The notes under the pieces are model-generated. The model did not search any database, was not told the origin of the DNA, and saw only the letters and a program-made list of their open reading frames with translations. This document shows, piece after piece, positions 1 through 33,719 of a stretch of 64,000 nt of DNA (the stretch's first letter is position 1; every line of letters begins with the position of its first letter). This stretch comes from an uncultured Acidimicrobiales bacterium (GTDB taxonomy: Bacteria > Actinomycetota > Acidimicrobiia > Acidimicrobiales > SHLQ01), in assembly GCA_937922235.1 (NCBI GenBank), contig CAKZVC010000025.1, positions 1-64,000 on the forward strand, read 5' to 3'. The translations under genes and the position numbers were made by a program.

Positions 1-82
1 CGACCGCGATCATGAGGTCGGTGATGACGGTGGCGGGGTCGCCGTTGAGATTGATGTGTGTGGTGGGTCCACCGGTTGCCAT
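1..82 (-). CDS. N-terminus of an unidentified, probably SOS-controlled protein (partial)
   Basis: An open frame reads leftwards off the window edge from an ATG at 82. The 27 visible codons use mostly C- or G-ending codons, as the real genes here do, and give a soluble-looking start (MATGGPTTHINL...). No ribosome site is visible, but a TATGAT -10 box lies at 90-95, seven bases upstream, so the gene looks leaderless. A perfect LexA palindrome (97-112) abuts this -10 box, which suggests DNA-damage control. An in-frame ATG pair at 89-94 is a less likely start. Too little is visible to name a family. Confidence 0.5.
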   Translation of the reverse strand, partial: MATGGPTTHINLNGDPATVITDLMIAV

Positions 83-96
83 AAAGAACATCATAG

Positions 97-112
97 TCGA
101 ACGTATGTTCGA
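97..112. promoter_or_regulatory. LexA (SOS) box
   Basis: The sequence TCGAACGTATGTTCGA is a perfect palindrome matching the actinobacterial and Bacillus-type SOS consensus (CGAAC-N4-GTTCG, with the outer T and A). It sits one base beyond the TATGAT -10 box of the leftward gene, where LexA binding would block RNA polymerase. It is also about 70 bp in front of the rightward PLP-enzyme gene, which has no clear promoter of its own, so control of both sides is possible. Confidence 0.85.
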
Positions 113-182
113 CTGCAAGTCGAATGATGAGAATCGGGAAAAACTCATCGGGTCGACATCGGGTAGGTCACCGCCACAGGAA

Positions 183-1301
183 ATGAAGCAGAATGGAGCA
201 ATGCACCCTGATACGTGGTTGATCTCGCAAGGACGACCGACCGAGCTTGGCGATCCGTTGAACTTCCAACCGACGATGGCGTCGAACTTCCGGCTTCCGG
301 GTGAGCGCTATTACAACCGCACCGAGGGAACCGAAACTGCCGGAGCGCTCGAAGAGCTCATCGGCGGAATCGAAGGAGGGCGAACACTCGCTTTCTCGAC
401 CGGCATGGCTGCCGTGGCGGCGGTGTTCGACAGCCTTGCGGTCGGATCGACGCTCGTCATCCCAGAAGATCCATATCACGCAACCAATGGCCTGGCAGTC
501 GAAGGTGAACGTCAGGGCCGTTGGACTGTGCGCCGTCTCGACCTTGCCGACACCGATGCGTGGGTAGCTGCGGCTGTCGATGCTGACTTGCTGTGGGTGG
601 AGACCCCGGCGAACCCGCTGATGACCGTGGCCGACCTGCCAGCTATCTGTTCGGCGCCTCGCAAAGAGGGCTGTCTCGTTGCGGTCGATGGAACGTTCGC
701 GACGCCTCTCGTGCAAAAGCCGTTGGAGCTTGGTGCCGACATCTCGATGCACTCGGCTACCAAGTTCATCGGTGGACACTCTGACTTGATGGCTGGGGTG
801 CTGACCGTGTCTGACGATGTGCTGTACGACGACCTCTGGAACCGTCGAGTTCGACTCGGTAGCACGATTGGTGGGCTCGAAGCGTTCCTCGCGATTCGAG
901 GCGCCCGCACCTTGCCGCTGCGTATGGAGCGATCGATGGAGAACGCCGCCATCTTGGCCGAGCGCCTCGACGTACACAGCGACATTGCTCGCGTTCGGTA
1001 TCCAGGCCTGCCGAGTCATGACACCCACGCACACGCAGCGAAGTTCATGGACGGCTTTGGCGCCATGATGAGCTTCGACGTAGTGGGAAGCGGCGAGCGT
1101 GCCAGCGCGGTTGTCGAACACACGTCGATCGTGAACAACGCGACGTCGCTTGGCGGCATCGAGTCAACCTGGGAACGGCGAGCCCTCATCCCGGGCCAGG
1201 AGACGATGCCTCCAACCCTCATCCGATTCTCCGTCGGCTGCGAGAACGTCGATGATCTGTGGGCTGATATCACGGCGGCGCTAGAAGCGACCAAGAACTA
1301 G
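183..1301 (+). CDS. Cystathionine gamma-synthase/lyase-type PLP enzyme
   Basis: This 372-residue protein belongs to the Cys/Met-metabolism PLP family (PF01053). These enzymes make or break C-S bonds of cystathionine, homocysteine or methionine in the cytoplasm. The PLP-binding lysine is K194 in SMHSATKFIGGHSD, preceded by the AVDGTFATP strand with the cofactor-contacting aspartate. A YYNRTEGTET segment early in the protein replaces the usual Y-x-R-x-x-NPT pocket. The frame is open back to position 12, but those 57 codons look non-coding and contain the LexA box region. ATG 183 is chosen because AGGAA lies just before it, and ATG 201 behind GGAG is the alternative. The exact reaction (synthase, beta-lyase or gamma-lyase) cannot be told from sequence. 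The next gene starts 5 bp after the stop, so the two are probably co-transcribed. Confidence 0.87.
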   Translation: MKQNGAMHPDTWLISQGRPTELGDPLNFQPTMASNFRLPGERYYNRTEGTETAGALEELIGGIEGGRTLAFSTGMAAVAAVFDSLAVGSTLVIPEDPYHATNGLAVEGERQGRWTVRRLDLADTDAWVAAAVDADLLWVETPANPLMTVADLPAICSAPRKEGCLVAVDGTFATPLVQKPLELGADISMHSATKFIGGHSDLMAGVLTVSDDVLYDDLWNRRVRLGSTIGGLEAFLAIRGARTLPLRMERSMENAAILAERLDVHSDIARVRYPGLPSHDTHAHAAKFMDGFGAMMSFDVVGSGERASAVVEHTSIVNNATSLGGIESTWERRALIPGQETMPPTLIRFSVGCENVDDLWADITAALEATKN

Positions 1302-1306
1302 CAGCT

Positions 1307-2131
1307 GTGCCGTCCGCATCTCCCGGCGCCGACTGGCTCCACGATTTGCCGCTGGCACCGGGCTCGCCCGATCTGCGCATGGGTACCCGTGCTCTCGATG
1401 TCACGCAATGGCTGCCTGTCGACGACAAGACCCCGGCCGAGATCGAGCTTCGCAAGCAGCTACTGGCCGAGCACGGGAGCGATGTTGCTCGCATCGTGCC
1501 TGGACACGAGACCGGTCTTACCGAGCTGACGTCGCTTATCGAGATCCACCTCCAACGTCGCCTCGACCCAGAGGTGGGGGCACCGGTCGATCAATTGGCC
1601 GTGGCAACCGCAGAGGACATGCTCGTGATGTGGCGCGACGAAAAACACTGGCGGCTCATCGGCGGCACGCTGCTGTTCCCGAACCAGTGGAACCTCAACG
1701 ACAAGATTGGCAAGACCGTCGCTGCCATTCACGCTCCCGTCGACGGGTACAGCGAGCTGTTGGAAGCGCGGGTCGATCAGTTCTTCGATCGGTTGAGCGC
1801 GGCTCGTCCAGTGTGGAGACGCAACTGGTTCTTCCACCAAGACCCGACCTTCTACCAGCCAAACCGGATGATCGAATCGCCGGTGTTCTCAATCGCCGAG
1901 GTCGAGCAGCTCTACATTCGGTCGGAATGGCAGACCCTTCGTCGCCTGGCATTCAGCGGCCTCATCATCTTCACGGTCAAGACCCAGGTGGAGCCGATCA
2001 CCGAGCTGAAGGCACGGCCAGCTCTTGCCGAGCAGATGTGTGTCTTTCTCGAATCAGCCTCGGCGCGCTCGCTCGAGAACAAGGATGCGACCGATCGTCA
2101 TGTCGCGATCATCGACTATCTGCGGAGCTAA
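1307..2131 (+). CDS. HODM/DUF3445 family protein (heme-dependent N-demethylase-like)
   Basis: The 274-residue protein matches the DUF3445 / heme-dependent oxidative N-demethylase alpha-subunit-like family (PF11927). Recognisable landmarks are the GGTLLFPNQWNLNDKIGK segment, the IHAPVDGYSELL segment, the WRRNWFFHQDP motif and the RSEWQTLRRLAFSGLIIFTVKT segment. The characterised HODM enzyme demethylates dimethylamine, but most members have no proven substrate, so no substrate is assigned. It starts with GTG five bases after the PLP-enzyme stop, which implies one operon. No membrane segment or signal peptide is seen. Some fungal and bacterial relatives lie beside amine metabolism genes; nothing here identifies the amine. 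Confidence 0.75.
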   Translation: MPSASPGADWLHDLPLAPGSPDLRMGTRALDVTQWLPVDDKTPAEIELRKQLLAEHGSDVARIVPGHETGLTELTSLIEIHLQRRLDPEVGAPVDQLAVATAEDMLVMWRDEKHWRLIGGTLLFPNQWNLNDKIGKTVAAIHAPVDGYSELLEARVDQFFDRLSAARPVWRRNWFFHQDPTFYQPNRMIESPVFSIAEVEQLYIRSEWQTLRRLAFSGLIIFTVKTQVEPITELKARPALAEQMCVFLESASARSLENKDATDRHVAIIDYLRS

Positions 2132-2227
2132 CGAGACTCGAGCTCACCTATTCCTTTTGATGGTGCATCCAGGGAAACCTCACTGTGCGTAGTCATCGTG
2201 AACTACATACAACACTGAGGAGTTTCC

Positions 2228-3421
2228 ATGCGTTCGATTCGACGTGCTCTCACCCGGGCACTCTCAATCCTGACCGTCACGGTTATGGCGGCTGCGGCCT
2301 TTGCTATTCCCGCATCGGCACAATCCAGCGGTGCGACAATCGCTGACACCGCGATTGCGGTTTCATCGCTCGACGGCTTCGACAACAACGATCAGGACTT
2401 CGATGTTCTGATCCAAGCGCTCATCGCTGCTGACCTTGTCGATGCAGTCGCCGACCCAGGAGCGGACCTCACGGTCTTTGCCCCAACCGACCGGGCGTTC
2501 ATTCGTCTCGCTCGTGATCTCGGCTACCGCGGCAATGACGAGGCCGCAGCCTTCAACGCCATCGTTGCAGCACTGACTGATCTTGGCGGCGGCGACCCGA
2601 TTCCCGTCCTGACGAACGTTCTGCTCTACCACGTGTCGCCCGGCTCGACCCCGTTCTCAGCGCTTAAGGCTGCCGGTTCGGCTGAGGTAGCAACGCTGCT
2701 TGGACAGTCCTTCACCGCAAACCAGCGTCAGCTCGTGGACGCTGCACCTCAGCTTCGCAACCCGTACATCAAGCGTGCGCTTACCGACATCCAGACCAGT
2801 AACGGCATCATCCACGGCATCAACCGTGTACTCGTTCCCGTCGACGTGTCTCCGGCAATGCGCAACATCCGCGGCGAGTCGCACAACCCAACGCCAACGG
2901 CCAACATCGTCGAGACTGCAATCGCTGTTTCGTCTGCTGATGGCTTCGACAGCAACAAGGGCGACTTTGACATCCTCATCAAGGCTGTCGTCACCGCTGA
3001 CCTCGCCGGCGCTCTTTCTGATGCAGGTGCTGACCTCACCGTCTTTGCTCCGACCGACAAGGCATTCGCTGTCCTCGCTCGTGACCTTGGCTACAAGGGC
3101 AAGTACGACGAAGCCGCAATGTGGGACTTCCTCGTCGGCGCACTCACCGACCTCGGTTCGGGCGACCCAATCCCTGTGCTTACGAACGTGTTGCTCTACC
3201 ACGTAGCGCCACAGTCGATCTCGTTCGCAGAGGTTCGCTCGGCACGCTCGGCAGAGGTGCCAACGCTTCTTGGCTCGAGCCTTCGGGTCAACGTTCGTCA
3301 GATCGTCGATGCCGCTCCGGCTCGTCGTGACGCTCGGATCATTCCAGCACTCACCGACGTGAACACCAGCAACGGTGTCATCCATGGAATCACCCGAGTG
3401 CTGCTTCCGCTCGACATCTAA
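2228..3421 (+). CDS. Secreted protein with two fasciclin (FAS1) domains
   Basis: The protein has 397 residues. A signal peptide (RR near the start, hydrophobic residues about 12-28) ends near ASA-QS. Two FAS1 domains follow, roughly residues 38-205 and 228-397. Each carries the H1 signature (DLTVFAPTDRAF and DLTVFAPTDKAF) and the H2 region (VLLYHV ... NGIIHGINRVL). FAS1 domains mediate adhesion at the cell surface or in the matrix. The two domains are closely similar in protein and DNA, indicating internal duplication. No sortase motif or membrane anchor is present, so release from the cell is likely. A strong ribosome site (TGAGGAG) lies seven bases before the ATG. The gene looks monocistronic and is followed by a hairpin at 3511-3544. 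Confidence 0.9.
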   Translation: MRSIRRALTRALSILTVTVMAAAAFAIPASAQSSGATIADTAIAVSSLDGFDNNDQDFDVLIQALIAADLVDAVADPGADLTVFAPTDRAFIRLARDLGYRGNDEAAAFNAIVAALTDLGGGDPIPVLTNVLLYHVSPGSTPFSALKAAGSAEVATLLGQSFTANQRQLVDAAPQLRNPYIKRALTDIQTSNGIIHGINRVLVPVDVSPAMRNIRGESHNPTPTANIVETAIAVSSADGFDSNKGDFDILIKAVVTADLAGALSDAGADLTVFAPTDKAFAVLARDLGYKGKYDEAAMWDFLVGALTDLGSGDPIPVLTNVLLYHVAPQSISFAEVRSARSAEVPTLLGSSLRVNVRQIVDAAPARRDARIIPALTDVNTSNGVIHGITRVLLPLDI

Positions 3422-33629: not shown

Positions 33630-33657
33630 GGCCGAACGTCGTGTCACACTCCCTGAG

Positions 33658-33695
33658 TAGGCTGACTAGCGAAGCTTGCGAGCACCGTCAGCCTA
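33658..33695. terminator. Inverted repeat between convergent cobT and SnoaL-like genes
   Basis: TAGGCTGAC and GTCAGCCTA are perfectly complementary across 20 bases. Its position suggests a terminator for the leftward gene. Confidence 0.4.
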
Positions 33696-33719
33696 GGAAA
33701 TGGCTGGACAGGCTCGCTC

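Follow-up and report, generated by a model that had tools for sequence, protein, structure and literature searches.

The left edge of the window (the whole 64,000-nt stretch analysed, bases 1–64000 of contig C25) very probably holds the promoter and the first 27 codons of a LexA-controlled DUF222/13E12-type HNH nuclease gene, a copy that moved in between hisA and the gene of a PLP enzyme and brought its own promoter with it. The metagenome-assembled genome (MAG) comprises 4.4 Mb in 118 contigs at ~88% completeness, and its closest public relatives are Acidimicrobiales MAGs. Window position 1 is also base 1 of C25, and the leftward sequence ends there in this assembly. The gene is located on the minus strand at 1..82 with its ATG at 82, and after this start codon the frame reads MATGGPTTHINLNGDPATVITDLMIAV up to the contig edge, which cuts it.

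We first describe the promoter. The sequence TCGAACGTATGTTCGA at 97..112, to which no strand is assigned, is a perfect 12/12 TCGAAC-N4-GTTCGA palindrome of the actinobacterial LexA (SOS) box type. It is the sole match to CGAACN4GTTCG in the 64-kb window, where 0.15 would be expected by chance, and the exact TCGAACN4GTTCGA pattern occurs eight times in the whole genome compared with once for a reversed control pattern. On the minus strand, a putative −10 element TATGAT (90..95, 5/6 to consensus) lies 17 nt from a weak putative −35 element TTGCAG (113..118, read 118–113, 3/6 to consensus), and the LexA box is contained in this 17-nt spacer. TATGAT is followed after 7 nt by the ATG (82–80), which is thus leaderless. 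A generic sigma-70 scan did not call this window-edge promoter because the −35 is weak; the TTGCAG sits in a CGACTTG motif common to the paralogs, on which the layout of the whole promoter recurs. No PafBC-type promoter (TGTCAC or TGTCRGTG, fixed spacer, TANNNT) is present upstream of the window gene. Moreover, lexA of the same genome (contig C33) has two 11/12 boxes upstream, and a box of at least 10/12 was found near the full-length lexA loci of relatives in 16 of 16 cases. The preliminary description had named a perfect SOS box on a leaderless promoter, and both parts are borne out by the exact palindrome, by the many paralogs with an equal arrangement and by the lexA boxes.

The same description had assigned the gene to an unknown family, which did not hold, as promoter and N-terminus recur at two loci of the MAG that open 13E12/DUF222-type HNH genes. 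Window bases 1–122 recur at C59:78563–78686 with 96% identity, and bases 73–122 recur at C113:938–989 with 88% identity; each of these copies lies at a contig end and opens a long frame, that of C113 staying open for 315 codons until the contig stops. The C25 and C59 copies are 100% identical in the 30 nt preceding the start codon and 98.8% identical in the first 82 nt of coding sequence, and upstream of −41 they share only 29%, so that identity between copies stops about at the putative −35 (113..118). Therefore the repeat ends at its own −35. Judged from this alignment, the promoter belongs to the gene family.

The 141 bases at the end of C113 recur without a difference at the beginning of contig C2. 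This contig starts inside the same gene family and then continues into hisA (C2:784). The missing 3′ half of the window gene probably starts contig C2. We infer this C25–C2 join, and the 141 bases common to C2 and C113 would also fit with C2 continuing the C113 copy; the family assignment appears clear whichever of the two contigs C2 joins. The unassembled middle of the window gene was not found elsewhere in the MAG. An early close of the frame just beyond the window edge, which would have counted against the observation, is countered by the close paralogs, open for at least 315 codons, and by C2 with the likely C-terminus. At this locus the genes would most simply be ordered as hisA, nuclease gene, PLP gene, the two ends of the nuclease gene lying on C2 and C25.

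The flanking host gene on the other side encodes a cystathionine gamma-lyase/synthase-type PLP enzyme (201..1301, plus strand, divergent), and is followed by a gene for a HODM_asu-like (haem-dependent oxidative N-demethylase alpha-like) protein (1307..2131, plus strand), a neighbour of the PLP gene and not part of the system. In three sister genomes (L013, L014 and L018) hisA is divergently adjacent to the ortholog of this PLP gene, and in L015 the two are separated by one extra gene. With hisA beside the PLP gene in sister genomes, the nuclease gene has the look of an insertion, and we infer insertion here rather than loss in the sisters. Alignment of the hisA–PLP intergenic regions was limited to 19 bp at hisA and a short piece ahead of the PLP start, and showed no readable junction or target duplication. 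Terminal inverted repeats of the kind expected at transposon ends were not found in window 1–2300, which holds the single assembled edge of the unit. The extra gene in L015 (L015:1132–3741) is a different one of 869 aa, and the spot may be a repeated insertion site. The PLP coding start (201) is 89 bp beyond the LexA box, and co-control of the divergent enzyme had been raised as a possibility. This is not supported and was rejected: the box is not conserved at the orthologs, none having been found within the fetched flanks at L013–L015 and L017–L019, and the box arrives with the inserted gene. At L016 a LexA box lies 2.5 kb from the PLP ortholog.

The window gene can be regarded as a copy of a dispersed, multicopy family of the DUF222/13E12 type, predicted to encode HNH endonucleases, with at least 16 loci in this genome. 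Pfam searches with the window, C59 and C113 fragments alone gave nothing, DUF222 (PF02720) included for C113 and C59, and the identity came via the paralogs and C2. On C2 the HNH domain (PF01844) scored 28.4 bits against a Pfam cut-off of 21.4, an assignment that reaches the window gene through the C25–C2 join or through the close paralogs; the end of DUF222 on C2 scored 21.3 bits, just below the cut-off of 24.4. The H-H, N and H residues of HNH and both CxxC pairs are conserved. Moreover, the window subfamily is homologous over its full length to the DUF222-positive paralogs (hhalign 99%, E 8e-18, 352 columns). We modelled the structure of the C5 paralog (461 aa, mean pLDDT 70). Its helical N-terminal region, residues 46–165, aligns with ParB/Noc DNA-binding domains at Z up to 7.8 (ten top rows), and its C-terminal residues 342–415 align with the HNH domains of Cap5, IscB and McrA-type enzymes at Z 6.0–6.7. 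Foldseek gave no match to this model at E≤0.001; with VIA-align the matches fell into coherent ParB/Noc and HNH groups, all with Z <8, a level that is no proof of fold. The product is best read from the model as a DNA-binding nuclease that would be made only under damage.

The association of box and family extends over the genome and its relatives. Seven of the eight perfect LexA boxes in this genome are on the nuclease family. The eighth (L009, G000:C47:84031–84046) has the end of parB on one side and a peptidoglycan-binding/amidase-like gene on the other. Nine family genes of this genome have a box of 11–12/12, located 28–30 bases before the ATG and farther upstream in C14. The 12 genomes of this genus and its sister genus have 53 perfect boxes in total, and in 27 cases (28 if the window's own is included) a family gene follows within 300 bp downstream. 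In eight genomes belonging to other families of the order, where DUF222 genes are common, this holds for 0 of 13 perfect boxes; therefore the wiring is a trait of this lineage. Two of these other genomes (G013 and G017) have 13 and 11 DUF222 matches and no perfect LexA box. Damage wiring is, on these predicted promoters, not universal for the DUF222 family.

For a family-wide count we picked 80 further family genes from G000–G011 by protein similarity, not by promoter; these genes are related to each other and not independent. An upstream LexA box of ≥11/12 was found in 45 of the 80 and one of ≥10/12 in 58, a PafBC-like motif in 26, and either a box of ≥10/12 or the PafBC-like motif in 75. Control stretches of equal length inside the same genes gave 4/80 (≥10/12), 0/80 (≥11/12) and 0/80 (PafBC-like motif). 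The strict order of box, TANNNT, 6–7 nt and ATG is present in 32 of the 52 family genes with a box of ≥11/12 (45 of the 80 plus seven from G000).

The second promoter type has the pattern TGTCAC-N10-TANNNT (PafBC-like). In five family genes of this genome GTGTCACACC, a fixed spacer and TANNNT are found in place of the LexA box, with the ATG 6–7 bases on, and in two family genes (C59:21.5 kb and C78) both motifs overlap. The PafBC-like motif also precedes recA and rmuC, as well as a comM-like and a UPF0102 gene, all assigned from their translated sequences. At recA (L168, G000:C33, around 77056) a 10/12 LexA-like box lies just upstream of the PafBC-like promoter, a double arrangement that resembles the two-promoter recA of mycobacteria. 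Two tandem genes on contig C95 encode proteins that match PafB (E 1.2e-27) and PafC (E 6.7e-27). In a tree of N-termini the promoter classes were clustered, and the PafBC-like class (class B) needs at least 9 label changes; this tree of 137 columns has long branches, is weak and was used only for clustering and swaps. Promoter swaps appear to have occurred more than once.

Related sequences were also seen outside the family. Five further loci (L162, L166, L169, L173 and L176) stand behind TGTCACAC-N8-TANNNT and are candidate members of a PafBC-type regulon, with putative products that are small proteins, DNA methylase-like or DUF4065-like. Matches to TGTCACAC-N8-TANNNT at C25:33642, C27, C39 and C42 were not counted as promoters, being part of a palindromic REP-like repeat; this element is TGTCACACTCCCTGAGTAGGCTGACTAGCGAAGCTTGCGAGCACCGTCAGCCTA at window 33642–33697 and also occurs in C27 (twice), C39 and C42. 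A REP-associated-transposase-like protein (L178, C114) is encoded behind a PafBC-like promoter.

These observations are consistent with the following model. LexA bound to the box between −35 and −10 would block RNA polymerase. On DNA damage, RecA filaments would form and LexA would cleave itself, releasing the box, and a leaderless mRNA would be transcribed from just before the ATG. The resulting protein would combine an N-terminal helical, ParB/Noc-like DNA-binding region with a C-terminal zinc-ribbon HNH domain. The gene copy would have moved between hisA and the PLP gene carrying this promoter.

What such a nuclease would be for can be explained in several ways. It may belong to a set of host DNA-repair nucleases, damage-induced enzymes for mismatches or blocked forks that are kept for their survival benefit, and we consider this a tentative and somewhat unlikely explanation. 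The two damage regulons are the same as those of recA, rmuC, comM and lexA, and a repair role has been proposed for the 13E12 HNH genes of Mycobacterium tuberculosis (PMC4181829); however, copy number varies strongly among close relatives (6 to 26 family matches per genome), and the scattered positions are unlike those of core repair genes.

Slightly less probable, and unlikely in our estimate, is a selfish dispersal triggered by damage, in which the HNH nuclease, induced together with recA, cuts sites related to its own copies and repair then copies the gene in a homing-like or gene-conversion process. Arguments for it are the many scattered copies, sharply bounded at their own promoter, the copy gained at the hisA–PLP locus in comparison with the sisters, and the mosaic copies, the N-terminus on C25 being like that of C59 and the start of C2 identical to C113. 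Moreover, the REP13E12 loci of M. tuberculosis, which have no defined function, are hot spots of gene conversion (PMC13061034), and REP13E12 has been described as mobile-element-like and damage-activated (PMC5005354). Nevertheless near-identical paralogs can undergo gene conversion without a nuclease, the cut sites are hypothetical, and no terminal repeats were found within window 1–2300. A wider form of it, in which the HNH paralog family is wired to two interchangeable damage sensors (LexA-type and PafBC-type) with repeated promoter swaps and the nuclease drives its own copying when recA is abundant, is in our opinion doubtful.

Equally doubtful is a damage-triggered defence or suicide nuclease against phages or plasmids, fired when infection induces SOS. 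The modelled HNH domain aligns with that of the CBASS effector Cap5 and with modified-DNA restriction enzymes, and the predicted damage-inducible control and high turnover would also suit such a function; however, PADLOC gave no match, which led us to reject a known defence system, and no accessory defence genes were found at the copies examined. A phage or plasmid origin was likewise rejected, with a single weak match in each of the two record sets. That the box is a chance palindrome or the site of another regulator, the gene not being damage-controlled, is highly improbable: LexA binding at the box is a prediction from sequence and the remaining LexA regulon (dnaE2, imuAB) was not located here, but dozens of paralogs carry the box at an equivalent place in their promoters, for which a chance palindrome was rejected, and lexA and recA of this lineage bear the same motif.

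Actinobacteria commonly carry 13E12/DUF222-HNH genes, which are without defined function. In this lineage nearly all copies stand behind one of two damage-response promoters and vary strongly in number and position, which suggests that damage induction is a defining trait there and not a mycobacterial detail. Control by LexA or by PafBC according to promoter class, nuclease activity and the spread of copies on damage become testable predictions in non-pathogenic relatives, and, if the PafBC-like motif is confirmed, the promoter class of this regulator extends to Acidimicrobiales. LexA control of 13E12 HNH genes is already known in M. tuberculosis, where these genes belong to the LexA regulon (PMC4181829, PMC5005354) and five putative HNH endonuclease genes are RecA-dependent after mitomycin C (PMC8151990); what is new is this lineage, a wiring that is nearly total and its division between two sensors. 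In the part of the literature covered, where absence is weak evidence, no description was found of a DUF222-HNH family wired almost completely to LexA or PafBC, or of such wiring in Acidimicrobiales.

Compared with the REP13E12 HNH proteins of M. tuberculosis (such as Rv0515, Rv1702c, Rv3074 and Rv3776), the present family is alike in its DUF222/HNH-type architecture, in its many dispersed copies and in LexA/SOS control, which is established there (PMC4181829, PMC5005354) and predicted here from the promoters; gene conversion between copies, described there (PMC13061034), would be a further shared feature. It differs in its Acidimicrobiales host, in that nearly every copy is damage-wired and mostly leaderless, in that about a third have a PafBC-like promoter, alone or overlapping a LexA box, and in that the closest subfamily, for the greater part of its length, scores below the DUF222 cut-off. 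The resemblance to ParB/Noc domains and to the HNH nucleases Cap5, IscB and McrA-type enzymes is at fold level only (Z <8, identity about 10–20%). The box is identical in its core to the actinobacterial LexA box, given as tCGAAC-N4-GNNCGa in Streptomyces (PMC9380542) and as MKWMTCGAAMRYWTGTTCGA in M. tuberculosis (PMC4181829), and likewise lies in the promoters of both damage genes and lexA; here, in contrast, seven of the eight perfect copies serve the nuclease family, and lexA and recA have imperfect ones. PafBC-dependent, RecA-independent promoters of mycobacteria have the form tTGTCRgtg-N8-TannnT (PMC5656591), with the variant TGTCAC-N10-TA-N3-T in M. tuberculosis (PMC8151990). The class B promoter of the sister paralogs has equal spacing and is also present upstream of recA, in a genome with tandem PafB/PafC homologs on C95, whereas its sequence is TGTCACACC and not TGTCRGTG, and the window copy, without this motif, has the LexA box.
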